A DNA stretch of 64,000 bases, from NCBI RefSeq assembly GCF_022809775.1, contig NZ_CP094380.1:3545902-3609901 (forward strand), written 5' to 3'. The notes under the pieces are model-generated. The model did no database searches. It was not told the DNA's origin and saw only the letters and a program-made list of their open reading frames with translations. Source of the stretch: Pseudodesulfovibrio tunisiensis (GTDB lineage: Bacteria > Desulfobacterota > Desulfovibrionia > Desulfovibrionales > Desulfovibrionaceae). Every line of letters begins with the position of its first letter. Within the stretch, counting starts at the first letter, position 1. Position numbers and translations under genes: made by a program. Of this stretch, positions 3,235 to 56,730 are shown one piece after another.

Positions 3235-3933
3235 GCCGAATGCGGTCTCCGCACCGCTGTTGCAGTTTGTGCCCGGGGGGAAGGCGTTGTGATGCCGTGG
3301 ACAAAGGCAAAATGCGTTCCAAGCGATATGCCGGATTTTATATGCTGATATGCTTGGATATAAATCCCGGCTGGGAAAACAACGATTTCTCTTGCCGGAA
3401 ATGCCGGGAGACAACGGCGAGAAGCCGTAAGTCGCTTGCGCGTTCTTTTCGTGCTTTTTTCTCTCCCGCGCGTATGGATTGCGTGAATTTGGATGATGCA
3501 GGTGTGCCGGATGGCGGGACGTGGGCCTCCGGTGCTGCGCATTGCGAATACGGCATGTTATAAATGGAAAAATAAAGTCATGTTTTTTCGAGCTGTTATC
3601 AAGGGCCTGCCAAGAGCTTTTCCGAGGTGACTCGGGGCTGTCCATTTTTAGTGGATTGAGGCGGCCTGTTTGACCTTTTGCCTTTGCACGACGCTTGCGA
3701 ATTCATGGCAAAAAGTTGCGCGATGTCCGTTTTGCGCTTTCCCCAAGCGTGCTGAATCCTTTGTTTCCCTAGTATTCCAGTCTGTTGTGGATTTTTCCGG
3801 GTGAGGACATGTTCCGAGGCCTGCCCGTCGATGAGGATTCCCAGCCCGATCCGCACATCGGTTCTGCCAGGTCCATTCTGGCACAAAGTCTGTTTTTGCA
3901 TGAATAAATACAATAAAAACAGCTACTTTCATG
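3235..3933. other. long intergenic region without a credible gene
   Basis: About 700 bases lie between the divergent HD-GYP gene and the sigma-54 promoter of the transporter/signalling cluster. Open frames here (up to about 107 codons) overlap each other on both strands, have no family resemblance and unusual Arg/His/Cys content, so none is called. The region holds the leader of the HD-GYP gene and probably enhancer sites for a sigma-54 activator, though no clear inverted repeat was identified. At 3646-3682 it carries a short motif repeated at 38436-38470. Confidence 0.55.
3646..3682 (+). repeat. short dispersed intergenic motif, copy 1
   Basis: The run TTTTTAGTGGATTGAGGCGG, then CTGTTTGACCTTTTGCCTT, aligns with 38436-38470, which reads TTTTTGGTGGATCGGGCGGT then TTGACTCCTTTTGCCTT. 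Only a few substitutions and small gaps separate them. Both copies are intergenic. Function unknown; it may be a fragment of a larger dispersed element. Confidence 0.45.
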
Positions 3934-3949
3934 TGGCATAGTGATTGCT
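3934..3949 (+). promoter_or_regulatory. sigma-54 (-24/-12) promoter of the transporter/phosphorelay cluster
   Basis: TGGCATAGTGATTGCT fits the RpoN consensus TGGCAY-N5-TTGCW exactly, with GG and GC ten bases apart. Transcription would begin near 3961, giving a leader of about 95 bases before the response regulator at 4055. It implies control by a sigma-54 activator; one is encoded at 43610-46474, but a link is only conjecture. Confidence 0.75.
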
Positions 3950-4054
3950 TTGTATCCATGCATGAATGGAGGTTCAGCATCGCGTAATGGCACATGCGAA
4001 TCAAATAAGTAATCCCCATAGAGATAGTAAAACAACGCATCAGAGAGTGTAGAC

Positions 4055-4507
4055 ATGGAAGCTATGAAGATAATGCTTGTGGATGATGAAGAAAGATTGC
4101 TTCAGACCACGAAAAAACTCTTCAACAAGATGGGGATTGAAGTCATTACCACCACAAACGGTGAAGAGGCTGTCGATCTCATAAACAAGGAAAACATTCA
4201 TGTCGTTTTCATGGACATCAAGATGCCGGGAATCGACGGCATGGAGACACTCCGCAAGATAAAGAAGGAAAACCCGTTGGTCGAAGTCATTATCCTCACA
4301 GGCCATGCAACCATGGAATCGGCTGTGGAAGGATTGAAACTCGGCGCAATGGATTACCTTATAAAGCCCCTGAGCATGAAGAACTTTCTCGAGAAGGCTG
4401 AAGACGCGTTTGAAAAGGTCAAAAGGCAGAAGCAAAAAATCCTTAAGGCCTGCCGGACCGAGCTGCCGGTTGCGGGCAGGGACACGGAAAACACCGAGAG
4501 GAGGTAG
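4055..4507 (+). CDS. response regulator, receiver domain only
   Basis: A CheY-like receiver of 150 residues with a charged tail and no output domain. Acidic pair at DDE near residues 11-13, phospho-acceptor D54 in FMDIKMPG, Thr in ILTGHA, Lys in YLIKPL. First gene after the sigma-54 promoter, ending two bases before the next regulator gene. An internal ATG at 4064 (MKIMLV) is an alternative start; the ribosome-binding site is weak for both. Its base composition is visibly more AT-rich than that of its neighbours. It probably receives phosphate from one of the cluster's kinases and acts by protein contact. Confidence 0.92.
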   Translation: MEAMKIMLVDDEERLLQTTKKLFNKMGIEVITTTNGEEAVDLINKENIHVVFMDIKMPGIDGMETLRKIKKENPLVEVIILTGHATMESAVEGLKLGAMDYLIKPLSMKNFLEKAEDAFEKVKRQKQKILKACRTELPVAGRDTENTERR

Positions 4508-4509
4508 CA

Positions 4510-5412
4510 ATGTCGACGAACATAAAAGTTCTGATGGTCGACGACGAGGAGCGTTTTCGCACCACGACTGCGAAAATACTTGCCAGGAAGGGGTTCGAGA
4601 CGATCCTCGCCGAAAGCGGCGAGCAGGCGCTCACCATGCTGTCCGAGAACCCGGACGTGGTTGTCCTGGATGTTCGGATGGCAGGAATGGATGGACATGA
4701 AACGCTGACCAGGATCAAGGCTGCCAAGGCCGACCTCGAGGTGATCATGCTGACCGGACACGGCGATTTGCCGAGTGCGCAGCAGGCCCTCAAGAGCGGT
4801 GCCTTCGACTATCTGGCCAAACCCTGCGACATCGATCTTCTCGCCGCCAAGATCGAGGACGCCGTGGCTCATGGCGGCAAGCACGTCTACAAGGAAAAGA
4901 CCGCAGCCGAAGTGATGATTCCCATCGAGGATTACACGGTCATCGATGAGAACAGCACGATCAAGGATGCCATCCTTGCCCTGCAGGAAGCCAAGAAACG
5001 GCTGCTCGCCACGGACAGGCTCATCGACTCCGTGCATCGGTCGGTTCTGGTTCGCCGTCGCGACGGTTCGCTGGCCGGCATTCTCAGCCCCCGGAATCTG
5101 ATCGGCGCGGTTCGCCCCGAGTACCTTTCCGCCCCCAAACCGTCCACGGCCGACAGTCTTCAGTACTCGGCCATGTTCTGGCAGGGGCTGTTCACCTCCC
5201 GCACCCGTGAAGTCGTTGCTCAGCCCGTGAGCAGCTTCATGTCCGACAACCCGCCTTCGGTCGATGCGAAAGCCAACCTCATGGACGTGGCCGACACGTT
5301 GGTCACCAACGGGGTCAGGCGGCTGATCGTCACCGAGAACGGCAAGGACGTCGGCGTGGTCAGGGAACAGGAACTCTTTTTCGAAATCTCGCGGATCGTT
5401 TCCGCAAGCTGA
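4510..5412 (+). CDS. response regulator with CBS-domain output
   Basis: 300 residues. Receiver at about 1-120 with D54 in VLDVRMAG (Ala where Pro is usual), ILTGHG-type loop and Lys in YLAKPC. About 125-300 resembles a pair of CBS motifs: AAEVMIPIEDYTVI with a following NSTIKDA, and SFMSDNPPSVDAKA through VREQELFFEIS. CBS pairs typically bind adenine nucleotides or similar ligands and gate transporters or enzymes. The AGGAGG site overlaps the end of the previous gene, and the gene sits 24 bases before an anion transporter. It may couple phosphorylation and nucleotide status to that transporter; this is inference. Confidence 0.88.
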   Translation: MSTNIKVLMVDDEERFRTTTAKILARKGFETILAESGEQALTMLSENPDVVVLDVRMAGMDGHETLTRIKAAKADLEVIMLTGHGDLPSAQQALKSGAFDYLAKPCDIDLLAAKIEDAVAHGGKHVYKEKTAAEVMIPIEDYTVIDENSTIKDAILALQEAKKRLLATDRLIDSVHRSVLVRRRDGSLAGILSPRNLIGAVRPEYLSAPKPSTADSLQYSAMFWQGLFTSRTREVVAQPVSSFMSDNPPSVDAKANLMDVADTLVTNGVRRLIVTENGKDVGVVREQELFFEISRIVSAS

Positions 5413-5436
5413 ATCGAGCGGAAATAGAGGTGAATC

Positions 5437-7287
5437 ATGGCTCAAGCAAAGAAGAAAGCAACCGGATACGACAAGTATGTGGACTGGAAGCTGTTCATCA
5501 TACCCGTGGTGCTGTTCACCATAATGGTCCTTCTTCCCACGCCGGACGGCATGAGGAAGGTTGGCATGCAGTACCAGGTCGGCCCCAGCGCCGTGACCGG
5601 GCTGATTACCGAGCAGCTTTTCAACAAGGATTCCTCCCAGGCCGAGCAGTGGGAGATTCTCACGGCCCGGATGATGGAACGCAACATGCGCATGGGCGCG
5701 CTCTCCAAGGAGCGTTTTCTCAAGCGTAACGAAAAGTGGTGCACAAAGTACAAGATTCCTGTTGATCAGGCCAACTTCAAGCAGGCAAGGGATTTCATCC
5801 AGCAGACCGTCAGCGCCGAGCGCTACAAGGAAGTCATGCAGAATGCATTCGACTATCGCATGAAGACGCTGGATTACGATGATCTCACTGCCAGAGACAA
5901 GAAAAAGGCCGACAAGGGCGCCTGGCACATCAAGGTCGCCATTGCCATGGTCGTCTTCGTTGTCTTCTGCTTCATGACGGAATGCATCCCGCTGCCGGGC
6001 GTGGCATTCTGCATCGGTCTGATCCTCGTCTTCTTCGGCGTCGTCACGCGACAACAGGTGGCCATGCTCTACTGGTCCGACGCATGCTGGTTCATCATGG
6101 GTTCACTCATGTTCGCCACTGCATTCGTCAAGACCGGTGTGGACAAGCGCATGTGCCTGCTCATGTTCAAGAAGCTGGCCGTGCCCAACGTGCGGTGGAT
6201 CACGCTGATCTTCTTCATCGTGATCGCTCCGTTGGCCGCGTTCATCTCCGACCACGCCCTCGCCGCCATGTTCCTGCCCATCGGCATGCTGCTCTACCAG
6301 AACAGCCTGACCGAGGAAATCCCCGAGGACAAGGAACTTGCCAAGATGCTGATGATCACCATTGCCATGGCGTGCAACATCGGTGGTCCCGGCGCCCCGT
6401 CCGGCGGCGCACGCAACGTCATCATGATGACCTACCTGACCGACATGTTCGGTTTCGACATCGGCTACTTTCAGTGGGTTACCTACTGCATGCCCTTTGT
6501 CATCGTCATGATCCCCATCACCTGGATCGCCGTGAACATGCTGTTCAAGCCCAGAATCAAGTCCCTCGCTCCGGCCATGAAGCATCTGGAAAGCGAAATC
6601 GACAAGATGGGCAAGTGGAACAGAAACCAGATCTGGGCAGTCATCATCTTCGTCGTCATGGTCTGGGGATGGTTCACTGAAAAGATCTTCTTCAACATGG
6701 GCATCTACCCCGTCCGTCTCGGCATCGGCGTGATTGCGGTTGCCGGTGCTGTCGCCTACCTGCTGGCCGGTGTGGTCAACTGGCGCGACTATCAGGAAAA
6801 GGTGGACTGGGGTGTTGTGTGGCTGTACGCGGGCGCGATCATCTTCGGTCGTACCCTGGACTCCACGGGTGCAGCATACTGGCTCGCCAGTTCGGTTGTC
6901 GATCTCCTGGCCCCGCTGGGCATGGACCACGGCATCCCGCTGATGCTCACCTCCAACGGTCTTACCGCTGTGCTGACCAACCTCATGGCTGACGGTCCGG
7001 CCGCTGCGGCAGTCGGTCCCATCACCCTGAACATGGCTGGCATCGTGCATCCCGGCACCACCTTCCTGCCCTTCATGGCCATGGCCACGGCAGTGGCATC
7101 TTCCTTCGCCTACTGCCTCATCATCGGCACCCCGCCCAACGCCATTGTCTACGCTTCCGGTTATCTGGAGCCCAAGGACTACCTGCGTGTTGGCGTGCCC
7201 ATGTGGTTCGTGGCGAACATCATGATCGTGGTGCTCACCGCCGTATACTGGAACATCAGAGGATTCTCCGGACTCCCCGGATTCTGA
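5437..7287 (+). CDS. SLC13/DASS-family sodium-coupled anion transporter
   Basis: Inner-membrane protein of 616 residues with about a dozen hydrophobic segments. The DASS signature is clear near the C-terminus (SFAYCLIIGTPPNAIVYASG, about 546-565), with the inner-repeat motif NIGGPGAPSGGARN near 318-331. The family imports sulfate, di- or tricarboxylates, usually with Na+; substrate is not readable here, sulfate being attractive for a sulfate reducer. Unusual is a charged insert of about 120 residues between the first TM helix (about 18-36) and the second (about 167). It follows the CBS regulator by 24 bases; GAGGTGA precedes the ATG. Confidence 0.9.
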   Translation: MAQAKKKATGYDKYVDWKLFIIPVVLFTIMVLLPTPDGMRKVGMQYQVGPSAVTGLITEQLFNKDSSQAEQWEILTARMMERNMRMGALSKERFLKRNEKWCTKYKIPVDQANFKQARDFIQQTVSAERYKEVMQNAFDYRMKTLDYDDLTARDKKKADKGAWHIKVAIAMVVFVVFCFMTECIPLPGVAFCIGLILVFFGVVTRQQVAMLYWSDACWFIMGSLMFATAFVKTGVDKRMCLLMFKKLAVPNVRWITLIFFIVIAPLAAFISDHALAAMFLPIGMLLYQNSLTEEIPEDKELAKMLMITIAMACNIGGPGAPSGGARNVIMMTYLTDMFGFDIGYFQWVTYCMPFVIVMIPITWIAVNMLFKPRIKSLAPAMKHLESEIDKMGKWNRNQIWAVIIFVVMVWGWFTEKIFFNMGIYPVRLGIGVIAVAGAVAYLLAGVVNWRDYQEKVDWGVVWLYAGAIIFGRTLDSTGAAYWLASSVVDLLAPLGMDHGIPLMLTSNGLTAVLTNLMADGPAAAAVGPITLNMAGIVHPGTTFLPFMAMATAVASSFAYCLIIGTPPNAIVYASGYLEPKDYLRVGVPMWFVANIMIVVLTAVYWNIRGFSGLPGF

Positions 7288-7310
7288 CGAGACACATCCT
7301 CACTCACCTC

Positions 7311-7336
7311 CCCGGCGGTCCGCAAGGGCCGCCGGG
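7311..7336 (+). other. GC-rich intercistronic hairpin
   Basis: CCCGGCGG and CCGCCGGG pair perfectly around a 10-base loop between the transporter and the tiny membrane protein gene. There is no U-tract after it. It may be an RNA-processing or attenuation element that sets relative expression within the operon. Confidence 0.45.
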
Positions 7337-7355
7337 CCATCCAAGGAGACAGGAC

Positions 7356-7505
7356 ATGAATGGCACAAGCAATGAAACCAACACCAGATTTTTCGAACAC
7401 AAGAAAGGCGTGACCTATTTTTCCAAGCGAACCGAGCGGATCATCTGCTTTCTGCTGACCCTGTGCATGCTGTGCTGGGGCGTGGTGGAATCGTTGATCC
7501 AGTAG
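7356..7505 (+). CDS. small single-pass membrane protein
   Basis: 49 residues beginning MNGTSNETNTRFFEHKKG, with one hydrophobic helix at about 30-47 (CFLLTLCMLCWGVVESL). The start is supported by AAGGAG at 7343-7348, eight bases before the ATG. It lies just after the SLC13 transporter and could be an accessory subunit, as seen for other transporters with tiny partners. No family recognised. Confidence 0.65.
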   Translation: MNGTSNETNTRFFEHKKGVTYFSKRTERIICFLLTLCMLCWGVVESLIQ

Positions 7506-7532
7506 AAACCCGACGGGACAGGAGGGTTCAAC

Positions 7533-8081
7533 ATGAGTGCGGCAACCGAAACTGTGAAAAATCTCAATATCAAGGAATATTTCGAGATTCTGATCAATTT
7601 GATGCGACATCCAGCGGTGTTCTTTGCGGATGTGGCCGGGGAGACAGGCACGCGCAGGGCGTGGATGTTCCTGTTCATTTCGGCCCTGTTCTATGCCTCG
7701 GTCAGCATGAGCTATTTTTTCGAGAGTTCCTTGCAGATGGGCGTGGTCATGATGGCCAACGGCCTGCTCATGCCGCTGCTGGCAACCCTGTTCACCTACA
7801 TTCTGGTGGGCATGTTTCACACCGAGCGGATCGAGTTCGCCAGAATTTTCAACATCTATGCCTATGCCACGGGCGCGATGATGGTCGTGTCCTGGATTCC
7901 CGGGCTGGCCATTGTGCTGGAACCGGTGCGGGCTCTGCTGGTGGGCGTGGGGCTGGTCAAGGCGTGCGGCCTCGGCAAGCTCAAGGCCGCGTCCATGGTC
8001 GTTGCCACCGCCTTTCTGCTGCTCATGTTTTTCTGGACCCTGGCTCCGGTGGTCATGGAGCTTCGCGCCCTCTTGGCCTGA
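7533..8081 (+). CDS. Yip1-family integral membrane protein
   Basis: 182 residues with about five TM helices spread over 45-180 and a short cytosolic N-terminus. The layout and the segment RIFNIYAYATGAMMVVSWIP match the bacterial Yip1 domain, whose role is poorly defined. AGGAGGG lies upstream of ATG. It is in the sigma-54 cluster, 27 bases after the small membrane protein and 130 before a response regulator. It may organise or modulate the neighbouring transporter; no direct evidence. Confidence 0.75.
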   Translation: MSAATETVKNLNIKEYFEILINLMRHPAVFFADVAGETGTRRAWMFLFISALFYASVSMSYFFESSLQMGVVMMANGLLMPLLATLFTYILVGMFHTERIEFARIFNIYAYATGAMMVVSWIPGLAIVLEPVRALLVGVGLVKACGLGKLKAASMVVATAFLLLMFFWTLAPVVMELRALLA

Positions 8082-8211
8082 CGGCCGCCCCGGGGACCGG
8101 GGCATCCGGCCCCCGTTTACATAATCGCTGTCGGCTCAGGCAGCACCATTCCTGTCCCCGGGCCGGGGCCCGCACGCCTCGGCCCATCGGGACGGAACCC
8201 GGAGGATCGCC

Positions 8212-8595
8212 ATGCGCAGGATACAGCTTCTTCTTGTCGACGACGAGAGTGACTTCCTCATCGCCTATGCACGCAGACTGGCGCGCCGCAATGTCGAGGT
8301 CAGCACGGCTCCCAGAGCCAGGGATGCGATCGAGGCCATCAAGGCCGCGCATTTCGATGTGGTGGTCATGGACGTGATGATGCCGGGCATGAGCGGCATC
8401 GAAGCACTCAAGACCATCAAGAAGATCGCCCCGGGTCTGCCAGTGATTCTGCTGACGGGACACGCCAATTCCGAAGCCGCGCTTCAGGGCATGGCATACG
8501 GCGCATTCGACTACATGCTCAAGCCCGTGGGAACCGACGAACTCTACTTCAAGATTCAGGAAGCCGTGCGCGCGGGCGTTGCGGGCGTGGCCTGA
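8212..8595 (+). CDS. response regulator, receiver domain only
   Basis: 127 residues, nothing beyond the receiver fold. DDES near 10-13, D54 in VVMDVMMPGM, ILLTGHANS, and Lys in YMLKPVGT. GGAGG precedes the ATG. Clearly paralogous to the other receivers of the cluster. It ends 13 bases before the PEP-synthase-like gene, so the simplest idea is that it reports to, or is read by, that enzyme. Confidence 0.92.
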   Translation: MRRIQLLLVDDESDFLIAYARRLARRNVEVSTAPRARDAIEAIKAAHFDVVVMDVMMPGMSGIEALKTIKKIAPGLPVILLTGHANSEAALQGMAYGAFDYMLKPVGTDELYFKIQEAVRAGVAGVA

Positions 8596-8608
8596 CCCGG
8601 AGGCGGAC

Positions 8609-11251
8609 ATGATGATCCTGGACTCACTTCGCCCGGGACGCAGAACCGCATGCAGGGGCGACGAGGAGCGCATCCGGCAGTGCCGTGCGCGCTGCGAGAA
8701 TTTCCGGCTGCTGCTTTCGGCCAATGCCGAGGCGCTGGATGCCATGGCCGACATGAACGACAGCCTGATCGGGGAGCGCCCCTTCGGCATGACCCAGGTG
8801 CGCTCCCATTGCGTCAAGGCCGCATCCGGAGTCAGTCGCATGATCGATCGGCTCTGCCGAATGGCCCCGGGCCGTCATGATGCACTCAAGGATGTCTTCA
8901 ACCGCATCGTTCTGGAAATAAACGAGATCGTCAAACCAGTGGAGGGCCCCATTCACGGTCCCTTGTGCGTGCCGCTGTCCCGTGCCCGCAGACAGATGGC
9001 CGGCGACATCGGCCCCAAGATGGCCATGCTGGGAGAGGCGAGGCATCTACTGGGCGTGACCGTTCCTCAGGGGTTCGTGATCACGGCTGCCGCATTTCGG
9101 CGTTTTCTGCTTCAGAGCGGACTGCGCGACGAGATCGACCGCATGATTCAGGTTGCCGAGGCCGAGGAACTGGACGCCCTGTTCGCTCTGGAGTCCCGCA
9201 TCAGCCGCCTCATTGCCGAGGCCCCGTTTCCGGACGGGCTGGAAGAGGCGGTCGCCGAGGAACTGGAACGGATGAATTCGGATGGATCACTCCGACTGGC
9301 CGTTCGCAGCAGTGCGGTTGGCGAGGACTTGCCGGGCATCAGTTTTGCCGGACAGTACAGGACCGTGCTGAACGTGGTCCCCTCCGAAGTGCTGGAAGCC
9401 TATCGCGAGGTCGTGGCCAGCATGTATTCGGTTTCGGCCATGACCTATCGGCTCAACCGGGGCATCGGCGGCGAGGAACTTGCCATGTGCGTGGGGTGCA
9501 TGCGCATGGTACCGGCTCGTGCCGGTGGGGTGGCCTATTCCGTGGATCCCATGGACGCAACAGGACGCACCTTGTCCGTAAGTGCTGTCCCCGGGCTGCC
9601 GGTCGGCGTCGTGGACGGCAATGCCAGCCCGGATGTCTGGTCGCTGGATCGTGATTCCCTTGAAATCGTGTCCGGTTCGGTGCCGGAAAAGACCTGGAAA
9701 TACGGACAGGCCGAAGGCGGAGGATTGGAGCGGGTTCCCGTGAACGGACATGGCTCCGCTTCCGTGCTTGGCCCCGAGGAGCTTGATCGACTGGCGCGAC
9801 TGGTGCTTCGGCTCGAATCCGAGTTCGACGGCCCGCAGGATGTGGAATGGGCCGTGGCCGAGGACGGCGGGCTGATTCTTCTACAATGCCGTCCATTGGA
9901 CAGGGAAGAGGACGCCTTTGTCGCCCCTCGGGGGGATGCGCAGCATCTGCTCCTTTCCGGCGGCATCCCGGCCAGCCCGGGCGTGGGCGCAGGCAGACCG
10001 TACGTGGTGGACAAGGACGCGGACATGCTCGGATTTCCGGATTGCGCGGTACTTGTGGCACGCAATGCCCGCCCCAGATTGGCCGCCATATTGCCAAAGG
10101 CGGCGGCATTCGTGGCGGAAAACGGCAGTGCCACAGGGCATCTGGCCAATGTGGCACGTGAGTTTTCCATTCCCGCCGTTGTCGGACTCAAGGGCGCGGT
10201 GGACATGCTGGCCGGTGTGGAGACCGTCACCGTGTCGGGCACGCATGGCGAAATATATTCCGGACGGAGGAGCGAGATGTTTCCGGATTCCGTGTGTCGG
10301 CTATCCGTCATGGAAGGCACGCCGGTCATGGAGAAGCTTCAGAAGGTCGTCCCCCTGGTCACGCCGCTCAATCTGCTGCATGCGGATGGTCCCGAATTCG
10401 CGCCGGAACATTGCCGGACACTGCATGATCTGACCCGCTACTGTCACGAAATGGGCGTGCGCGAAATGTTTCGCGGCAACGGCGACATGCCGCTGGGCAG
10501 GCGACTCGTGGCCGAACGGACCATGCAATACTGGATTGTTGATCTGGGCGAGGGCATTTCCCGGGATGCGGACCCGGAATCCGACACCGTGGACCTTGAG
10601 CATATCTGTTCCGACCCCATGCTTGCCCTGTGGCGCGGCATGACCGCGATGCCCTGGCAGGGACCGCCTGCGCCGGATGCGCGCGGGCTGGTCGATCTGT
10701 TCGGGCAGGCTGCGGCCAATCCCGCACTCTCTCCGGAATTGGGGAGTTCCATGGCGGATCGCAACTATTTCATGATCGACCGGCACTACTGCAATCTGCA
10801 ATCCCGGTACGGATTTCATTTCAGTACGGTCGAGGGCCATGCCGGTCCGGACTCCGGCGAAAATTACGTGTTCTTTCAATTCAAGGGCGGGGCCGCGGCA
10901 CAGGACCGACGCGAGCTTCGGGCCGAACTGATTCGGCGGGTGCTGGAACCGCTCGGATTCGTGACCGAGGTCCGGGGCGACGCCCTGTATGCTCGCATGG
11001 AAAACGAGGAAGCTTCCGTGGTGCTGGATGCCATGGTCGTGCTGGGGCATCTGGCCGTGCACACCCGGCAACTGGACATGGCCATGACCGGACCCGAGGT
11101 CGTGGACGCGTATCTCAAGCGAATCGAAACGGAAATCGAAACCTTTCTTCACCCGACTGGAAAGCCTGACAGCATTCCTCACCCTCATCCCCAAGGCCCC
11201 GGACGTTCCGGGGCCGACGGGGAGCCGGAATCCGGGGAGGATTCGCAATGA
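8609..11251 (+). CDS. PEP synthase/PPDK-like phosphotransferase with an unrecognised C-terminal domain
   Basis: 880 residues from ATG at 8609, chosen because GGAGG sits just upstream; the longer frame starts inside the previous gene. After about 130 helical residues comes a PPDK-type ATP-binding domain (about 135-435): GVTVPQGFVITA, AVRSSAVGEDLPGISFAGQY, GGVAYSVDPMD, PQDVEWAV then LLQCRPLD. A phosphohistidine swivel domain follows (about 450-555) with the active-site His in GSATGHLANVAREFSIPAVV. The last 330 residues are not the TIM-barrel PEP-binding domain of PpsA/PPDK and I do not recognise them. By analogy with rifampin phosphotransferase it may phosphorylate another substrate. It overlaps the next gene in ATGA. 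Confidence 0.85.
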   Translation: MMILDSLRPGRRTACRGDEERIRQCRARCENFRLLLSANAEALDAMADMNDSLIGERPFGMTQVRSHCVKAASGVSRMIDRLCRMAPGRHDALKDVFNRIVLEINEIVKPVEGPIHGPLCVPLSRARRQMAGDIGPKMAMLGEARHLLGVTVPQGFVITAAAFRRFLLQSGLRDEIDRMIQVAEAEELDALFALESRISRLIAEAPFPDGLEEAVAEELERMNSDGSLRLAVRSSAVGEDLPGISFAGQYRTVLNVVPSEVLEAYREVVASMYSVSAMTYRLNRGIGGEELAMCVGCMRMVPARAGGVAYSVDPMDATGRTLSVSAVPGLPVGVVDGNASPDVWSLDRDSLEIVSGSVPEKTWKYGQAEGGGLERVPVNGHGSASVLGPEELDRLARLVLRLESEFDGPQDVEWAVAEDGGLILLQCRPLDREEDAFVAPRGDAQHLLLSGGIPASPGVGAGRPYVVDKDADMLGFPDCAVLVARNARPRLAAILPKAAAFVAENGSATGHLANVAREFSIPAVVGLKGAVDMLAGVETVTVSGTHGEIYSGRRSEMFPDSVCRLSVMEGTPVMEKLQKVVPLVTPLNLLHADGPEFAPEHCRTLHDLTRYCHEMGVREMFRGNGDMPLGRRLVAERTMQYWIVDLGEGISRDADPESDTVDLEHICSDPMLALWRGMTAMPWQGPPAPDARGLVDLFGQAAANPALSPELGSSMADRNYFMIDRHYCNLQSRYGFHFSTVEGHAGPDSGENYVFFQFKGGAAAQDRRELRAELIRRVLEPLGFVTEVRGDALYARMENEEASVVLDAMVVLGHLAVHTRQLDMAMTGPEVVDAYLKRIETEIETFLHPTGKPDSIPHPHPQGPGRSGADGEPESGEDSQ

Positions 11252-12921
11252 CCATCGCCACGTATCGCAAGCTTCGCTGGAAGCTCATCGTCATCACGCT
11301 CTGCTTTTCGCTCATTCCTCTGCTGGCTCTCGGATATTTTCTGCACTCCGAATTCAGCGAGAGCTATACCACCAAGGTCGAGGACCATCTGCGCCTCATC
11401 GTGGCCAACAAGCGCGATGCCGTGGATGTGTTTCTGGCCGAGCGCGTGGTTCAGCTCAGGAATCTGGCGGGCACGCATACCTATGCCGAAATGACCGATC
11501 AGAAATATCTGGACTCCCTGCTCGACACGCTGCTCGGCACGTCCCGCTCCATCATTGATCTCGGCATCATCGACAGTTCCGGCAAGCAGGTCGCCTATGC
11601 CGGCCCCTATGAACTCAAGGGCCTCAACTACAAGGAACAGCCGTGGTTTCATCAGGTGCTGCTCAAGGGGCTGTACATCAGCAACGTGTTCATGGGGTTT
11701 CGGCAGTATCCGCATTTCATCATCGCGGTGACGCGACGCGAGGCCGGGCGGACATGGATTCTTCGCGCCACCATTGATTCGCATGTGTTTTCCACGCTGG
11801 TCCGCAGTCTGCAACTCGGCGAGGGCGGGGACGCCTATCTGGTGAACCGCGAAATGCAGTTGCAGACACCCTCCCGATTCCGGGGCAATGAATTGACCCG
11901 GGTTGATCTTCCCCTGCGTGACGTGGGCGGGGACGTGCGCGTCTTTCGCTGCAATACGCCCGAAGGCGAACGGGTTGCCGGAGCCACGCGGTTGCATCGC
12001 ACGGATTGGGTGCTTGTGGTCACGGAAGACCCGCGCGAGGAACTGTCGCCGCTCATGCGTTCCCGGTCCATTGCCGGGCTGCTGTTCGGCGCGGGCGTGA
12101 TCATGATTGCGGTCGGGGCGTTGCTGACCACGAATTCCGTGGTGCGCAAGCTGGTTCAGGCTGACCGGGAAAAGGCGGCCATGGACGCGGGCGTGCTTCA
12201 GTCCAGCAAGATGGCGTCTCTGGGCAAGATGGCTGCGGGCGTGGCGCATGAGATCAACAATCCCCTGTCCATCATCCGCGAGAGCGCGGGGTGGATACGC
12301 GATCTCATCAATGACGGCGAACTGGACGGATACGAGGCGCTGGACGAGTTGCAGGAGGCCGTGGGCGACATCGAACGCCATGTGGAGCGCGCCCGTCAGG
12401 TTACCCACCGCATGCTCGGATTCGCCCGGCGCATGGAGCCGTTGCAGGAAAACGTGGACCTCAACCATCTGGCGCGGGAAACCGCAAAGTTTCTGGACAA
12501 CGAGGTACTGCACCGCAATATCGACGTGAAATTCGATCTGAACGACCTGCCCGAGATCACCACGGACGTGAATCAGGTGCAGCAGGTGATTCTGAATCTG
12601 CTGGAAAACGCCATCGACGCCATTGGGCAGGACGGCGTGATCACGGTTCGGTCCGCGACCGGGGATCAGGAAGTGCGGCTCTCCGTGGAGGATACCGGAA
12701 CCGGCATTCCCAAGGAGTACCTGCACAAGGTGTTTGATCCGTTCTTCACCACAAAATCCGTGGGTGAAGGCACCGGGCTTGGTCTTTCCATCATCTACAG
12801 CACGCTCCGCAAGCTGGGCGGCGACATCACGGTGGAGAGCGAATTTGGCAAGGGAACCGTGTTCACGGTGCATCTGCCTGTTGGCGAGGCCGTGGCAAGG
12901 CATGAGGAGAGAGTGATATGA
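11248..12921 (+). CDS. membrane sensor histidine kinase with extracytoplasmic Cache-like domain
   Basis: 557 residues. TM1 (about 14-34), a periplasmic sensor of about 250 residues of dCache type (GIIDSSGKQVAYAGPY, YISNVFMGFRQYPHF), TM2 (about 272-292), then HisKA with H334 in AAGVAHEINNPLS and HATPase with NLLENAIDAI, DTGTGIP and TGLGLSI. Family NtrB/DctB-like. No HAMP domain is evident. Start ATG overlaps the stop of the PEP-synthase-like gene, and its own stop overlaps the next start, so three genes are translationally coupled. Likely phosphodonor for the neighbouring receivers. Confidence 0.92.
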   Translation: MTIATYRKLRWKLIVITLCFSLIPLLALGYFLHSEFSESYTTKVEDHLRLIVANKRDAVDVFLAERVVQLRNLAGTHTYAEMTDQKYLDSLLDTLLGTSRSIIDLGIIDSSGKQVAYAGPYELKGLNYKEQPWFHQVLLKGLYISNVFMGFRQYPHFIIAVTRREAGRTWILRATIDSHVFSTLVRSLQLGEGGDAYLVNREMQLQTPSRFRGNELTRVDLPLRDVGGDVRVFRCNTPEGERVAGATRLHRTDWVLVVTEDPREELSPLMRSRSIAGLLFGAGVIMIAVGALLTTNSVVRKLVQADREKAAMDAGVLQSSKMASLGKMAAGVAHEINNPLSIIRESAGWIRDLINDGELDGYEALDELQEAVGDIERHVERARQVTHRMLGFARRMEPLQENVDLNHLARETAKFLDNEVLHRNIDVKFDLNDLPEITTDVNQVQQVILNLLENAIDAIGQDGVITVRSATGDQEVRLSVEDTGTGIPKEYLHKVFDPFFTTKSVGEGTGLGLSIIYSTLRKLGGDITVESEFGKGTVFTVHLPVGEAVARHEERVI

Positions 12922-14240
12922 TCCGGGTTCTAGCCGTTGACGATGAAAGGGATTTTCTGAAGCTCCTGCAAAAGCGTCTGGCCAAGCGCAATCTGGAGAT
13001 TGCCGTGGCCCAGTCCGGGCGCGATGCCTTGGAATACATGTCCGCGAATCCCGTGGATGTGGTTGTTCTGGACGTGAAAATGCCGGGCATGAACGGTCTG
13101 GACGCGCTCCAGGAAATGAAGAAGCGGCACCCGGACGTGGAAGTCATCATGCTGACGGGCCACGGTTCCGTGAAGTCCGGGCTGGAAGGCATGAGCCGGG
13201 GCGCGTACGACTACGTGCTCAAGCCGTTCACCATAGACGACCTGCTGGAACGCATCCGGGCCGCCTTTGAACGGGTGCGGCGCAACCGGAGCGAGGTGTG
13301 GGGCGTGAGGCTCAACTCCACCAGAAACATGCTCATCGGGGGCAGCATCCTCCTGCCCCTGAGCTTTGCCGCCGCCGTGCTGATCATGCCCCGGCACCCC
13401 GTGCATGCGGCCGTGATCACGGCCGCGGCCGGGGTTGCGGTGTCATGGCTGCTCATGCGCGCCCAGGTTGATCTCGGCAATGCGGCCCGGGAGCGGGCCA
13501 GTCTGAACGAACAGCTCATCCGTTTCCAGAAGACCGTGTCCCTCGGCCAGCTTTCTGCGGGCATAGCCCACGAGATCAACAACCCCCTGAACATCATTCT
13601 GCAGGAAGTGGAGTATCTGGACGCGTATCTGGATGCCGTGGATCAGGATGAGCTTCGCGACGGCCTCAGACAGGTGCGCAAGCAGGTGGTGCGCTGTTCG
13701 GACATCACTCGCAGGCTTCTGGATTTCGCGCGGAGCCGGAAACCCGTGCTGCAGGAGGTCGATCTGAACAAGATGGTTTCGGACATGGTGCACCTCGTGC
13801 GGCGCGAGGTGTCGCCGGACGGTGTGGAGATCATCAACATTCTTGGTCGGGACATGCCCCGGCTCACGACCGACCCGCCCCTGCTGCGGCAGGCCCTGCT
13901 CAATCTGCTGGACAATGCCGTGCAGGCAGTGAGTCACGGTGGCGTGATTACCGTGGTGACCAGCAAGAGCCGCAACCATGCCTTTGTTCGCATCAAGGAT
14001 TCCGGGCCGGGCATTTCCCGGGATGACCTGCCCAGAATATTCGATCCGTTTTTCACCACCCGCCCGCCGGGCGAGGGCACGGGACTCGGCCTTTCCATGT
14101 GCCGCAGGATACTCGGCCAACTCGGAGGGGACGTGTACGTGGATTCCAAGAACACACAGGGGGCCGTATTTACCGTGCGACTTCCCCTGAAGACCGAAGA
14201 GGTGGAACATGCAGCGCTTACCCAGGATTCTCGTGGTTGA
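12918..14240 (+). CDS. REC-transmembrane-histidine kinase fusion
   Basis: 440 residues with an inverted hybrid order: receiver first (1-120; DDERDF, D52 in VLDVKMPGM, Lys in YVLKPF), then two TM helices (about 138-180) with almost no loop, then HisKA (H218 in AGIAHEINNPLN) and HATPase (NLLDNAVQAV, DSGPGIS, TGLGLSM). No periplasmic sensor domain is present, so input must be through the receiver or the membrane. It could be driven by phosphate from the upstream Cache kinase and pass it on to the overlapping receiver gene. ATGA overlap with the gene before and a 32-base overlap with the gene after. Confidence 0.9.
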   Translation: MIRVLAVDDERDFLKLLQKRLAKRNLEIAVAQSGRDALEYMSANPVDVVVLDVKMPGMNGLDALQEMKKRHPDVEVIMLTGHGSVKSGLEGMSRGAYDYVLKPFTIDDLLERIRAAFERVRRNRSEVWGVRLNSTRNMLIGGSILLPLSFAAAVLIMPRHPVHAAVITAAAGVAVSWLLMRAQVDLGNAARERASLNEQLIRFQKTVSLGQLSAGIAHEINNPLNIILQEVEYLDAYLDAVDQDELRDGLRQVRKQVVRCSDITRRLLDFARSRKPVLQEVDLNKMVSDMVHLVRREVSPDGVEIINILGRDMPRLTTDPPLLRQALLNLLDNAVQAVSHGGVITVVTSKSRNHAFVRIKDSGPGISRDDLPRIFDPFFTTRPPGEGTGLGLSMCRRILGQLGGDVYVDSKNTQGAVFTVRLPLKTEEVEHAALTQDSRG

Positions 14241-14631
14241 TGACGAGGCGCGTTTCAGGGAAAATCTGGTGCGCGCCCTGCACATCGAGGGCTTTGAGGC
14301 AGAGGGAGCGGAAAACGGGTTTCGCGCTTTGGAAAAGCTGATGCAGGATCCGTTCGACGTGGTTCTGCTGGACATGAAGATGCCCGAGCTTTCCGGCGAA
14401 GACACCCTGTTCTGCATCCGCGAGCGCGACCTGGACTGCGCCGTGATCTGCCTCTCCGGTCACGTGTCTCTGGATGACGCCACGGCCATGATCCGTCAGG
14501 GGGCTTTCGATTATCTGATCAAGCCCGCATCCCTGGAGGAGATCGTGGAAAAGGTGCGGCTCGCCCACGAGCGGCGGCTGGTGGAAAAGGGGGAAGCCGA
14601 TGCCTCGGACATCGCCCCCGGCACGATCTGA
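14209..14631 (+). CDS. response regulator, receiver domain only
   Basis: 140 residues: receiver with DDEARF, D55 in [16 protein letters not shown], Lys in YLIKPA, and a short acidic tail. It begins inside the last 32 bases of the REC-TM-kinase gene, preceded by GAGGTGG, and is followed by nhaB. Together with 4055, 4510 and 8212 it is the fourth free-standing receiver in the cluster, and none carries a DNA-binding domain. Confidence 0.92.
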
Positions 14632-14699
14632 TACGCGGCCTCGGCCGAACGCCTGCCGCCACTGCATTCACTTTCACGCGATCACCAAGGAGTTTCAAC

Positions 14700-16346
14700 G
14701 TGGTCAAGACGCTCAAGGAATCCTTCGGGGCCAACTTCCTCGGCAATGCCCCGGGCTGGTACAAAAGGGCCATACTCGCCTTTCTCGTCCTGAATCCCAT
14801 CCTGCTGCATACCGTAGGGCCGTTCGTCACGGGCTGGGTGCTCATCGCCGAATTCATCTTCACTCTGGCCATGGCCCTCAAGTGCTATCCGCTTCCGGCT
14901 GGCGGCCTGCTCGCCATTGAGGCCGTGTTTCTGGGCATGACCACTCCCGCAGGGGTCTACCATGAAGCCCAGCACAACTTCGAGGTCATTCTGCTGCTCA
15001 TCTTCATGGTGGCCGGCATTCATTTCATGAAGGATTTCCTTCAGTTCACCTTTACCCGCATTCTGGTGAAAGTGCGGTCCAAGATCATGATCTCCCTGCT
15101 GTTCAGCTTTGCGGGCGCATTTCTGTCCGCGTTTCTGGACGCGCTTACCGTCACGGCCGTGATCATCGCCGTGGCCTACGGATTCTACAATGTCTATCAT
15201 CGCTATGCTTCGGGAAAGGCCATGGGAGGAACCCATGACCTGTGCAACGACGAACTGGTCAAGCAGAAGGATCGTGCAGATCTGGTCGAGTTTCGCGGCT
15301 TTCTCCGCAACCTCATGATGCACGGTGCAGTGGGTACGGCTCTTGGCGGGGTCTGCACTCTGGTGGGTGAACCGCAGAATCTGCTTATCGCTTCGGAAAT
15401 GGGCTGGCATTTTGCGGATTTCTTCATTCAGGTTGCCCCCATCTCCATGCCTGTACTCGCGACCGGGCTGCTGACCTGCGTGGTGGTGGAAAAATTCCAT
15501 CTGTTTTCCTATGGATACCAGATGCCGGGCAACATCCGGTCCCATCTGCTGGAGACCGCAACGGCGATGGAAGCCAAGCGCGGGCCGCAGGGCAGGGCTT
15601 CGCTCGTGGTGCAGGGATTGGCCGGTGTCTGGCTGGTCATCGCTCTGGCAATGCATCTGGCCGAGGTCGGGATCATCGGTCTGTCCGTGATCGTGCTGCT
15701 CACGGCCCTGACCGGCATCACCGAGGAAGGCCGCATCGGCCATGCGTTCGAAGAGGCGCTGCCGTTCACGGCCCTGCTCGTGGTCTTCTTTTCCATCGTG
15801 GCCGTGATTCACGACCAGCATCTGTTTCGTCCGGTCATCAACTACGTGCTCAACCTGACCGGGCAGACCCAGTTGGCGGCCTACTATCTGGCCAATGGCC
15901 TGCTTTCCATGATCTCGGACAACGTGTTCGTGGCCACGGTGTACATCTCGGAAACCAAGATGCATTTCGTGAACATGCTGGCTGCTGTTCCGGACATCGG
16001 CATGACCGGCCAACAGCTCATGGACAAGCTCACGGACCCGCATCTGAACCGCGCCGACGTGGTGGCAGGAATGCCGCAGGCCGCAGCAACGCAGGCCCTG
16101 AGCATCGTCGCCCATCTGGACAAGCTGGCCGTGGCCATCAATACGGGCACCAACATTCCGAGCGTGGCCACGCCGAACGGGCAGGCCGCGTTCCTGTTTC
16201 TGCTCACCTCGGCCCTGGCTCCGGTCATCCGGCTTTCCTACGGCCGCATGGTGCTGCAGGCCCTGCCCTATACGATAACCATGTCGCTGGCCGGACTTGT
16301 GGCTACATGGTACATGGAAGACATTATCCGATTCTTCGGAGGATAG
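14700..16346 (+). CDS. nhaB: Na+/H+ antiporter NhaB
   Basis: 548 residues, about 12 TM helices, inner membrane. It follows enteric and Vibrio NhaB closely along its length: [20 protein letters not shown], a [11 protein letters not shown] motif, [27 protein letters not shown], and [18 protein letters not shown] near the end. It exports Na+ in exchange for H+. GTG start at 14700 supported by AAGGAG at 14685-14690; the ORF does not extend upstream. Compared with the enteric protein it has an extra stretch of about 40 residues (about 425-465, [18 protein letters not shown] onward) before the last conserved block. Placement inside a kinase/receiver cluster is unusual and suggests signalling over Na+ homeostasis. 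Confidence 0.95.
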
Positions 16347-16357
16347 CGCAACGCATC

Positions 16358-16385
16358 GCGCCGCGCCGGGGTTCCGGCGCGGCGC
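16358..16385 (+). other. perfect 12-bp GC hairpin between nhaB and the kinase gene
   Basis: GCGCCGCGCCGG and CCGGCGCGGCGC are exact inverted repeats around GGTT, ending five bases before the GGGAG ribosome-binding site of the next gene. No U-tract follows. Processing signal, attenuator or partial terminator are all possible. Confidence 0.5.
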
Positions 16386-16401
16386 AAAGGGAGCTGAGAC
16401 A

Positions 16402-17907
16402 ATGACGGATTTCGCGTACGATTCCCTGGGCACCTGCTACTGGGACGGCAACGAGACCGGGTTCAACATAGGCATCGTAGGCAATCGGTCCGGATTCGAC
16501 GCCATTCTCGACGTGATTTTCAACAATGCATTTCACGAGTTTTTTCCGGACATGCGGCTCGTGGCCCTGTCCGAACTGAATTTTCCCCTGCGGCCGCATC
16601 AGAATGTGACCGTGCCCGTGTACCGTTCGTGGCAGGCCATGCTGGACAAGCATCACGACATCAATCTGGTTGTGGAACTGACCGGAAGCCAGCGCAAGCT
16701 GACCAACATCCGGCGGAACCTGCCGGACGACGTGTCCCTGATGGATCATCGGGAGGTCGTGTTCTTCTGCGGCCTGCATGACATGGCGCTGGTCAAGGGG
16801 CATTTCCGGGACGACTCGGAACGGCAGCGCGTCCTGCTCAAGTCCATCATCGATGAAATCCGCGAGGACATTTTCCTGCTGGACAAGTCCGGCAACGTGG
16901 TGGACCTGAACCGGCCCGTGTGGCAGCGCGCGGGATTGCGGCGCAAGGATTTGCTCGGGCATCAGTGCTGGGAGGCGGCCCGGCTGCCGGACGGTTCCGC
17001 ATTCTGCGACTGTCTGGTGCCTTCCTGTCCCTTCTATCGGACCCTTGCAAGCGAAACCAAGGACGAGGCCATGATGACCCGCGTGGATCGCAATGGCCAA
17101 CTCCGCTACTACCGCATCTATTCCTATCCGCTTTTCGACATTCGGGGGCATATGACCCACGTGATGATCATGCATCGCGACATCACGGACCGCACCTATC
17201 GGGAAAAGCATCAGCAGAAGCGTGAACGTCTGGCCGTGGTCGGAGAAATGTCCACGTATCTTGCCCATGAAATTCGCAACCCCTTGTTCGCCATTGGCGG
17301 ATTCGCCAATTCCCTGTTCAAGTCCAAAACCATATCGGACAAGGACAGGGAAAAGGCGGCGATTCTCGTGGAGGAGACCAAGCGTCTCGATACCATGCTT
17401 ACCAGCATGCTCAAGTTCGTGCGGCCTACCGCGAGTGCGGATGAAGCCTCGGACCTGTGCGCCGTGCTCAAGGATACCATAGAACTCATGTCCATTGGTT
17501 ACGCCGGGCAGGGCTATGAGTTCGAAGTCCACTGTTCGCAGGAAATGCCCAAGGTGGCCGGGAGCGCGGAAACCATCAAGCAGTGTCTGGTCAATCTGAT
17601 CAAGAATGCTCTTGAGGCCATGCCGTCCGGCGGGATTGTCGAAGTGACCGCGGAATTGCGCGGCGATTCCGTTGCTCTGGCTGTTCATGATACCGGAACC
17701 GGCATGTCCGAAAAGGAAATGGATCGTGCGTTCAGCCCGTTCTTTTCCACCAAGAACGGAGGTAGCGGACTCGGGCTGGCCATGATCAAGAAGATCGTGG
17801 AGGAGCTGGGCGGTTCGGTCCGGCTGGAAAGTCGTCAGGGGCAGGGCACCACCGTGACTCTGCTTTTGCCGCCAGCCATGGCTTCCGTGGTTCGCAACGT
17901 GAACTGA
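16402..17907 (+). CDS. soluble PAS histidine kinase with NAD-binding-like N-terminal domain
   Basis: 501 residues from ATG at 16402 (GGGAG upstream; the frame further upstream crosses the hairpin and is not coding). Residues about 15-145 (FNIGIVGNRSGFDAILDVI through NLVVELTGSQRK) look like a Rossmann-type dehydrogenase N-terminus rather than a usual sensor. A PAS domain follows (about 150-265), carrying four Cys (GHQCWEA, CDCLVPSC) that could bind metal. Then HisKA with H289 in YLAHEIRNPLF and HATPase with NLIKNALEAM, DTGTGMS, SGLGLAM. No TM helix. Last gene of the cluster; it may sense redox or a nucleotide cofactor. Confidence 0.9.
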   Translation: MTDFAYDSLGTCYWDGNETGFNIGIVGNRSGFDAILDVIFNNAFHEFFPDMRLVALSELNFPLRPHQNVTVPVYRSWQAMLDKHHDINLVVELTGSQRKLTNIRRNLPDDVSLMDHREVVFFCGLHDMALVKGHFRDDSERQRVLLKSIIDEIREDIFLLDKSGNVVDLNRPVWQRAGLRRKDLLGHQCWEAARLPDGSAFCDCLVPSCPFYRTLASETKDEAMMTRVDRNGQLRYYRIYSYPLFDIRGHMTHVMIMHRDITDRTYREKHQQKRERLAVVGEMSTYLAHEIRNPLFAIGGFANSLFKSKTISDKDREKAAILVEETKRLDTMLTSMLKFVRPTASADEASDLCAVLKDTIELMSIGYAGQGYEFEVHCSQEMPKVAGSAETIKQCLVNLIKNALEAMPSGGIVEVTAELRGDSVALAVHDTGTGMSEKEMDRAFSPFFSTKNGGSGLGLAMIKKIVEELGGSVRLESRQGQGTTVTLLLPPAMASVVRNVN

Positions 17908-17934
17908 CGCGTGCGTTCCGGCATGAGAGAAGAG

Positions 17935-18170
17935 GCCTCCGGCGGCACGAGAAACTTTGATTCGCCCCGTCCAGGGCCTCTCCCTTCGGGCGCTGCGAAT
18001 GCCGCGTCCAGATCTGCCGTCCTGCGGATTTGTCCTGTCGAGGAATATGCTTCCGGGAAACAGGTTGTAAGGAGCAGAAAGGATTTGTTTTTTGGGCAAC
18101 CCGTTTCGGGGATCCAAGGGGCCTTGCTCCTTGGCGGGTCTGGGTAGCGCCCAGCCCCCCCGGGAGGGGC
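17935..18170 (+). repeat. dispersed intergenic repeat, copy 1, with terminator-like end
   Basis: Begins GCCTCCGGCGGCACGAGAAA and ends GGTCTGGGTAGCGCCCAGCC followed by a C/G run. The same start, middle (CCTGTCGAGG) and end recur in the same order at 51880-52227, while the stretches between differ. It fills the gap between the last kinase of the cluster and the convergent cyclase gene. Its end (AGCCCC...GGGGCT then TTTT, 18152-18174) can fold as a terminator for the kinase mRNA. Elements of this look are common between Desulfovibrio genes. Confidence 0.65.
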
Positions 18171-18172
18171 TT

Positions 18173-38541: not shown

Positions 38542-38557
38542 TGGCATGTGCCTTGCT
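38542..38557 (+). promoter_or_regulatory. sigma-54 (-24/-12) promoter of the tad minor-pilin genes
   Basis: TGGCATGTGCCTTGCT fits the RpoN consensus with correct GG-N10-GC spacing. Transcription would start near 38569, about 34 bases before the first tadE. The short leader contains TTCGGG/CCCGAA and GCTTTG/CAAAGC complementarity reaching the ribosome-binding region. Confidence 0.72.
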
Positions 38558-55788: not shown

Positions 55789-55991
55789 TGAGAACTCCTG
55801 AGGATTTGTATCGACGGAGTGTATAACCTGTCGTCAATAGTCTCAAGAAATTGCAGATGGAAACACATTTTTCGTGGGCATCCCGCAGAGCAAAAAGGGC
55901 ATACTGCGAGGAATGAAAAAACGAGGAAGGGCGAAGCAAAGCGGAAGGCAATCCTTCCAGCGTATTACCACTTTGTATTACCAAAAGAAAA
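55789..55991. other. intergenic region upstream of the pentapeptide-repeat gene
   Basis: About 200 AT-rich bases containing the promoter and leader of the minus-strand pentapeptide gene. No gene is seen. It is repeated nearly unchanged in each copy of the array. Confidence 0.5.
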
Positions 55992-56020
55992 ACGGCTTGC
56001 AGTATATTACTGCAAGCCGT
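55992..56020 (-). terminator. palindromic terminator marking the right end of every array copy
   Basis: ACGGCTTGCAGTA and TACTGCAAGCCGT form a 13-bp perfect stem with a 3-base loop; the minus strand continues TTTTTCTTTTGG. It should end a leftward gene lying further right, but that gene never appears. Ten bases beyond it (56030) the sequence jumps back to the start of the next copy. The same hairpin is at 58834-58862, 61862-61890 and about 63962-63990. Confidence 0.75.
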
Positions 56021-56030
56021 TCATTTTGTC

Positions 56031-56250
56031 TGAGGCAGGGTGGCGGAGAGTGACCCCAGTGCAAAGCCGATGGCGAACAGCCCAGTGCCGGTATGAATGC
56101 GGAGGTCAGGCCAGACACGCGACGACCCGCTTTGTCTCTCGACACGAACGGAGCCAGAACCAGCCAGGAGTGCCCGCGGGGTTCACGCCATGCACCAGCC
56201 AGTGTGAGCGATGATTGCAGGGCCACGAGGAACGAAGTGTCGGAAAACAT
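56031..56250 (-). pseudogene. N-terminal fragment of the His-rich transporter, copy 2
   Basis: Matches the first 75 or so codons of the gene at 52671-53390, truncated by the copy boundary and carrying internal deletions, including loss of the LGLVH segment. Not functional as it stands. Confidence 0.75.
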
Positions 56251-56339
56251 TTTGATCTCCTTATTGTTTGAAGATCAAAAAGAATTAGAATTTGTGTATT
56301 TCGAATGGTGGAAGCTAAAATGCGGGCGCAACCGTTCGG

Positions 56340-56569: not shown

Positions 56570-56730
56570 GACCGTTTTTTCCATTACAGTTTTTCCGATT
56601 GTGCCCACCTGGGCCAAGACCGTGGTGGGCAAAGAGTTTTCAATCCCGAAAGGGATATCCCGAATCACGTTTGACTAATCGTGGATATGTGTTCCAATGG
56701 AAGCAGGCCTGTAAAAGGCAAGGGCTGAAT

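Follow-up and report, generated by a model that had tools for sequence, protein, structure and literature searches.

The window, meaning the whole 64,000-nucleotide stretch of DNA analysed here (G000:C1:3545902-3609901; genome of one contig, 3.6 Mb), carries twelve co-directional genes on the + strand at 4055-17907 (open reading frame calls and Pfam). With about even confidence, the cluster is considered a sigma-54-driven operon for a transporter of the SLC13/DASS family, its substrate most likely sulfate, with its own post-translational control by receiver proteins. Gene content, promoter, synteny, domain make-up and the receiver-DASS fusions of relatives are read from sequence. By the transporter search, the closest named relatives are Pseudodesulfovibrio and other sulfate reducers. 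The features are as follows.

3934-3949, +: sigma-54 (-24/-12) promoter, TGGCATAGTGATTGCT, exact match to TGGCAYN5TTGCW.
4055-4507, +: RR1, single-domain receiver, 150 amino acids (PF00072, 109 bits).
4510-5412, +: RR-CBS, receiver plus CBS region, 300 amino acids (PF00072, 101 bits; PF00571, 51 bits).
5437-7287, +: SLC13/DASS anion transporter, 616 amino acids (TIGR00785, 220.3 bits, cut-off 198.6).
7356-7505, +: 49-amino-acid protein with a single transmembrane segment, directly 3' of the transporter (one hydrophobic segment, 29-47).
7533-8081, +: Yip1-like membrane protein, four hydrophobic segments (PF04893, 34.5 bits, cut-off 28.6).
8212-8595, +: RR3, single-domain receiver, 127 amino acids (PF00072, 100.8 bits).
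8609-11251, +: PEP-synthase-like (PEPS-like) protein (PPDK_N 263.8, PEP-utilizers 64.2 bits).
11248-12921, +: membrane histidine kinase with dCache sensor (dCache_1 50.5, HisKA 38.9, HATPase_c 100.6 bits).
12918-14240, +: receiver-kinase, composed of a receiver, hydrophobic segments 138-156 and 162-180, and a histidine kinase (PF00072 109.2, HisKA 43, HATPase_c 99.7 bits).
14209-14631, +: RR4, single-domain receiver, 140 amino acids (PF00072, 94.5 bits), with 14233 as a possible alternative start.
14700-16346, +: NhaB Na+/H+ antiporter, an optional member (PRK09547, 814.6 bits, cut-off 640).
16402-17907, +: soluble PAS histidine kinase, without hydrophobic segment (PAS_4, HisKA, HATPase_c).
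18153-18171, +: terminator-like hairpin with a T run, a consensus match only; such hairpins number 9 in the region and 13.1 in shuffled sequence.

Genes overlap at 11248/11251, 12918/12921 and 14209/14240, and gaps or overlaps at several junctions are 2-32 nt. Pfam scores lie above cut-off for receivers, CBS, DASS, Yip1, PPDK_N, PEP-utilizers, dCache, HisKA, HATPase_c and NhaB. Pfam totals are five receivers (one with the CBS region, one on a kinase) and three HisKA/HATPase_c kinases. No DNA-binding domain is detected by Pfam in any of the twelve genes; the 49-amino-acid protein has no Pfam match. Acceptor aspartates and kinase histidines are present in the translations, by eye. The source genome has 97 receivers above cut-off, and their densest 10.5-kb stretch (five starts) is this locus. 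An earlier, sequence-only reading had described twelve co-directional genes, several of them overlapping or nearly so, with an SLC13-type transporter, NhaB, three kinases, a receiver with CBS motifs, and Yip1-like and PEP-synthase-like genes; all are present. Its four free receivers are correct in number if RR-CBS is included, a fifth receiver being fused to the second kinase, and its tiny membrane proteins reduce to a single one.

The strongest hint that the output of the receivers in these clusters may be the transporter comes, by analogy, from relatives in which the two are one protein. DASS transporters of 680-701 amino acids with an N-terminal receiver in the same chain are found in eight genomes. 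Both domains score above the Pfam cut-off in all eight (receiver 87-96 bits, DASS 113-138 bits), a kinase gene is located near each, and inspection by eye shows the D, D, T and K positions retained in the fused receivers. Five of the fusions (L143, L151, L116, L146, L118) lie beside the cluster core and are 35-37% identical to the window transporter; their record titles name Desulfobacula, Desulfobacteraceae, Desulfococcaceae and Desulfobacterales, that of L116 only Deltaproteobacteria. The remaining three (L245, L246 and L247, from genomes G036, G048 and G049) belong to the window's own order, with PEPS-like genes on the same contig. Genomes G248 and G392 are taken as L116 and L151 and not recounted; G201 is excluded, with two internal stops. 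Six open reading frames with both domains, and 168 with DASS alone, are found in the window plus 214 loci, many of them overlapping. The fused receivers form one group in a tree of 65 receivers (support 97/100), and a single fusion event is therefore probable. The window transporter itself is unfused. No paper on receiver-DASS fusions was found in the open-licence literature; PMC5840216 gives DASS proteins of up to 691 amino acids in its group Cii, and the word 'receiver' is absent from its main text.

The free components of the cluster are kept beside the transporter well outside the genus. The transporter-based search used the best 80 of 137 relatives (72-84% identity; some genomes common to the PEPS search described below), and counts per gene include only loci with enough flank. 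Receiver-CBS is located within 2.5 kb of the transporter in 50/50 loci, RR1 is present in 64/70, Yip1 in 64/70, the 49-amino-acid protein in 64/78 and the Cache kinase in 51/57. This core of Cache kinase, receiver, DASS, 49-amino-acid protein, Yip1-like protein and receiver-CBS extends into Desulfobacterales, beyond the window's order. The earlier reading had named a lack of synteny outside close relatives as a refutation, and the conservation seen here does not refute it. A divergent transporter group (52-55% identity, L207-L214) keeps receiver-CBS in 8/8 loci. In the same tree, window RR1 clusters with receivers from other orders whose genes precede DASS (support 93/91) and window RR-CBS with its counterparts from other orders (92/98), both values being under the tool's mark for firm support, with few columns. 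Control by protein contact is the best reading because related DASS transporters carry a receiver in the same chain; together with the receivers and receiver-CBS kept beside the transporter beyond the order, this supports the earlier proposal of signalling that acts on transport by contact.

The PEPS-protein search covered 60 genomes, with 40 regions fetched and loci chosen by their PEPS gene. It recovers SLC13-containing forms of the cluster from 22 same-genus loci and from a single further family (L074). The same-genus order is RR1, RR-CBS, SLC13, 49-amino-acid protein, Yip1, RR3, PEPS, Cache kinase, receiver-kinase, RR4, PAS kinase; PEPS is present in all 22 because the loci were picked by it. 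The receiver-kinase is often split into two genes. According to the gene caller it is missing in 2/22 loci (L064, L065), and the PAS kinase in 5/22 (L044, L058, L059, L062, L065). A protein of 948-1034 amino acids is encoded divergently from the operon in 16/22 same-genus loci (L043 1418-4465 and 15 others), not in the window; its L043 copy has no Pfam match.

The promoter is likewise conserved. An exact sigma-54 site lies 27-129 nt 5' of the first gene in 22/22 same-genus orthologues (RR1 identity >60%); base-shuffled upstream regions, with one mismatch allowed, give a mean of 0.1 and a maximum of 1. The sigma-54-driven cluster of the earlier reading is supported by the exact site at 3934 and this recurrence. 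Matches with at most one mismatch number 5 in the window, 5.0 being expected by chance. Ten RR1-like genes from loci farther removed (43-59% identity) have no site within 400 nt. A candidate activator, a membrane sigma-54 activator, is encoded about 8.5 kb upstream of the operon (G000:C1:3539030-3541486; L250 9031-11487) and shares 47% identity with an activator that neighbours TauE-PEPS genes in L066; no receiver domain is detected in it by Pfam. A PiT-type transporter with a DUF47 partner is located near this activator (L250 13567-15693). A second exact match in the window, at 38542-38557, lies 45 nt 5' of a TadE-like pilus gene at 38603, a further one being at 39007.

Several observations, given here and with the transporter and the PEPS-like protein below, weigh against the preferred reading. 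The fused proteins stand to the window transporter as paralogues, and their fusion probably has a single origin, so that for the window the argument is one of analogy. An NtrC-type activator (receiver plus sigma-54 activation domain) is found within 6 kb of the transporter in 9/80 related loci, and a LuxR-type regulator within the same distance in L101. In 25/57 loci the 6 kb upstream of the transporter include an exact sigma-54 site (no control; loci with enough flank only, same-genus records included). The regulators were found among lone receivers, defined as those without kinase or CBS part, on the + strand and within 6 kb of the transporter, which number 131 in the 80 loci. Most (107/131) are at most 180 amino acids long, which favours the contact reading; 10 have 181-260 amino acids and 14 are longer. 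These longest 14 are the five receiver-DASS fusions and the nine NtrC-type proteins. An HTH_8 match is present in seven of the nine (L137, L112, L153, L148, L149, L111, L106) and absent from those of L097 and L091. The LuxR-type protein is one of the ten of middle length; the other nine are plain receivers by script, eight of them with extra length before the receiver and an uncertain start. The seven NtrC-type genes with HTH_8 adjoin a kinase-like gene (blastp map).

The earlier statement that the system has no DNA-binding output is thus true of the twelve window genes and fails for nine related loci with NtrC-type and one with LuxR-type regulators. Clusters that are purely non-transcriptional throughout the family are ruled out (NtrC-type, n=9; LuxR-type, n=1 among ten tested). 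The sigma-54 sites and DNA-binding regulators of related loci mean that transcriptional control clearly exists in the family; the regulators weaken the contact reading and strengthen a transcriptional one. In its strict form, the latter holds that the kinases sense sulfate and that their only output is expression of the transporter gene, here via sigma-54. Besides the nine NtrC-type loci and L101, the conserved promoter and the activator upstream speak for it, as does the published model of a homologous cluster, which in its available text (PMC11887813, here and below) names WalR-type regulators and draws an interaction with the promoter. We regard it as unlikely. The single-domain receivers of the window (150, 127 and 140 amino acids) and of the D. 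widdelii locus (those tested, 148 and 151 amino acids) have no DNA-binding domain, and none is found by Pfam in four receiver proteins of the D. widdelii and D. alkanivorans loci; the upstream activator lacks a receiver; and receivers are fused to transporters. Given the NtrC-type activators in nine relatives' loci, transcription is probably a second layer beside contact control.

The transporter passes the DASS family test, with approximately 160 residues preceding the family match. The SNT motifs of VcINDY are its substrate/Na+ motifs. In alignment to VcINDY and human SLC13A1, the first is replaced by S271-D272-H273 in the window transporter, the second region reads A518-D519-G520-P521, and R326 belongs to the loop whose VcINDY sequence is GSPPN. 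SDH, ADGP and R326 are invariant in 104/104 orthologues. Both motifs are thus gone, while human SLC13A1, a sulfate transporter, keeps the first; substrate and Na+ coupling are accordingly uncertain. The distribution is patchy. At E 1e-100 or better the transporter occurs in 16/395 genomes of the phylum, source genome included, and in 0/16 listed same-family genomes of other genera, so it is not a general sulfate permease. A universal marine Na+/sulfate permease is ruled out by the same counts; no link of the transporter family to salt preference is reported in the available text of PMC5840216. A substrate other than sulfate, e.g. sulfite, a sulfonate or a dicarboxylate, is agreeable with the altered, invariant motif residues and with the PDB relatives found, most of which are dicarboxylate or citrate carriers. 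This alternative is judged somewhat unlikely, since within the sample the transporter is confined to dsrA-positive genomes, and homologous proteins are called sulfate transporters in PMC11887813 from annotation and abundance. All 16 transporter-positive genomes have dsrA at E 1.9e-168 or better, compared with 188/395 over cut-off overall (raw counts, related genomes included); among the matches listed, 14/16 are over cut-off, G092 and G446 being below the listed rows.

The PEPS-like protein consists of an N-terminal helical part, an ATP-binding dikinase domain, a phospho-histidine swivel domain and a C-terminal domain (structure model, predicted local distance difference test score 77.7). Both sequence and fold relate its ATP-binding and swivel domains to PEP synthase and rifampin phosphotransferase. 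The PEP synthase equivalog score is missed (276.6 vs 739.75 bits), and PEP-utilizers_C gives no match at E 0.1. H511, R233, E239, D240, E413, Q426 and R428 are invariant in 89/89 homologues, as are D607, H613, G677 and R771 of the C-terminal domain (566-850). No clear PDB relative of this domain was found with Foldseek and VIA, run on a separate model, which is not evidence of a new fold. No viral relatives of the protein were confirmed. For the 88 PEPS-like genes (81 loci), neighbours no more than 6 kb away include a receiver in 81 cases, a kinase in 73, DASS in 32, TauE in 27 and either transporter in 56; a receiver lies that near in 0.25 of random-gene draws in the source genome. For L005, L066 and L070 the TauE assignment is confirmed by Pfam. 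On the adverse side, 32/88 have neither DASS nor TauE within 6 kb and 7/88 have no receiver; the loci were selected by their PEPS gene, many are related to each other, and part of the regions was hand-picked from the PEPS search list. In the preferred reading, the PEPS-like protein probably serves as one more phosphotransfer component. It is also possible, and to be taken seriously although we lean away from it, that the protein is a metabolic enzyme phosphorylating a small molecule and merely co-expressed with signalling genes. Its first two domains are those of PEP synthase and rifampin phosphotransferase, and the polar residues D607, H613 and R771 of the C-terminal domain suggest a bound substrate; the nearness of homologues to receivers in 81/88 cases speaks against it. 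Two further loci of the window's order (L186, L187) combine two PEPS-like genes with several DASS genes, free receivers and kinases, with a CBS protein in L187. In L069 (3761-11911) a kinase-receiver-receiver-receiver-PEPS unit stands beside a CoA-ligase-like gene, with neither DASS nor TauE detected nearby.

Two genes of the window cluster are not constant members. The PEP-synthase-like gene, which the earlier reading had placed in the system, is an add-on (7/53 transporter-found loci). NhaB passes one equivalog test (PRK09547, 814.6 vs 640 bits) and misses the other (TIGR00774, 706.7 vs 826.1). It is present in 2/25 transporter-found loci and in 6/22 same-genus loci of the window cluster, and as an obligate partner of that cluster it is ruled out by the latter count. 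The earlier pairing of NhaB with the system does not hold for a fixed member but is retained in another form, as within the genus NhaB goes with a second cluster that has a DASS gene. In the source genome this second cluster (L202 4999-13701; G000:C1:2974998-2983700) encodes a receiver, a CBS protein, another DASS transporter, a hexapeptide protein, NhaB, a kinase, two receivers and a weak third. Its first receiver is degenerate, without the acceptor Asp (by eye), and its NhaB is 81% identical to that of the window. NhaB is located about 1.6 kb from the second-cluster DASS gene in 15/21 same-genus carriers of that DASS, and also in G038. The other six carriers comprise G004, without an NhaB match, and five whose two genes sit on separate contigs. 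The support for DASS-NhaB linkage comes from the second cluster, not from the window cluster. No exact sigma-54 site is found in L202. A sigma-54 activator gene lies just upstream of the second cluster (G000:C1:2973442).

Such optional membership is what would be expected if separate units, an old transporter-control core, a later PEPS-kinase unit and NhaB, were joined only by position. PEPS is lacking in 46/53 transporter-found loci and NhaB in 23/25, and kinase-receiver-PEPS units without detected DASS or TauE exist (L069, L079, L081). This explanation is held to be improbable, given one strand, junctions of 2-32 nt, a single conserved promoter and a gene order broadly kept in 22 same-genus loci.

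For the preferred reading, a sigma-54-driven operon with contact control, we infer phosphotransfer, direction of control, substrate, signals, PEPS role and Na+ coupling as follows. The Cache-domain membrane kinase would sense an outside solute and the PAS kinase a cytoplasmic signal. The kinases would phosphorylate the receivers without DNA-binding part, which may then touch the membrane transporter and its small partners (the 49-amino-acid and Yip1-like proteins). Receiver-CBS might supply nucleotide or ion input. The PEPS-like protein would pass phosphate from ATP to the swivel histidine and on to an acceptor held by the C-terminal domain. NhaB, where present, could expel the Na+ brought in. 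Sigma-54 transcription would form a second, separate layer.

Sulfate uptake determines how fast a major process of marine carbon and sulfur turnover runs, and according to the available text of PMC5840216 the proteins by which sulfate reducers take it up had not been identified in any study as of 2018. The cluster, and above all the fusions, offer defined proteins for testing whether a secondary transporter is under direct phospho-control. The results suggest that sulfate-breathing bacteria tune uptake directly, not through genes alone, and that the promoter model published for the homologous cluster (PMC11887813) is incomplete. The wide PEPS-like family gains a likely setting. Tentatively, and with confidence somewhat short of even, a new class of two-component output is proposed, in which phosphorylated receivers, fused or docked, gate anion uptake in sulfate reducers, and a new ATP-to-histidine dikinase feeds energy status into DASS/TauE modules.

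No RNA families over gathering score are found in the window and no tandem repeats at 3000-18500. Few genes are called at 55000-64000, near the contig end.

The sequence-only reading had known of no described system of this composition. That was wrong: a publication of 2025 (PMC11887813, Sci Adv) presents the core as a regulated cluster for sulfate uptake. Its available text reports, from Desulfosarcina variabilis and related species (26 in all, Desulfobacteraceae), a DASS/two-component/CBS cluster with abundant, constitutive DASS proteins, and proposes a model of sulfate uptake comprising sulfate sensing, promoter control and CBS control with WalR-type, PhoR-PhoB-like regulators. The window resembles it in having DASS, Cache kinase, receivers and CBS protein together, in a kind of cluster tied to sulfate uptake. 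It goes beyond it in the PEPS-like protein, NhaB, the soluble PAS kinase, extra receivers and the sigma-54 promoter, and its receivers, without DNA-binding domain, are unlike the promoter-acting WalR-type regulators of the model. The words 'receiver', 'fusion', 'fused', 'NhaB', 'antiporter' and 'Pseudodesulfovibrio' are absent from the main text of PMC11887813; its supplement (fig. S21-S23) may show fusions. The cluster is real, conserved and partly known, and the window is a variant of the PMC11887813 kind. New are the receiver-DASS fusions, the association of PEPS with transporters, the conservation of the sigma-54 promoter and the changes in the DASS motifs.

By TIGR00785 and PDB sequence match, the transporter is of the same family as VcINDY, SLC13A1 and SLC13A5. 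It differs from them in having SDH and ADGP and receivers beside it, fused in its relatives. The PEPS-like protein has the ATP-binding dikinase and phospho-histidine swivel domains in common with PEP synthase and rifampin phosphotransferase, and differs from both in lacking a PEP-utilizers_C match and in a C-terminal domain without clear PDB match. In PTS-Ntr and other phospho-histidine control of K+ transport, a phosphotransfer chain likewise ends on a transporter, not on DNA; the proteins of PTS-Ntr differ from those of the window cluster. SLC5-STAC histidine kinases (CrbS/CbrA), in the descriptions available, also join a solute carrier to two-component signalling; in these the carrier is fused to the kinase, whereas in the window's relatives the receiver is fused to the carrier.

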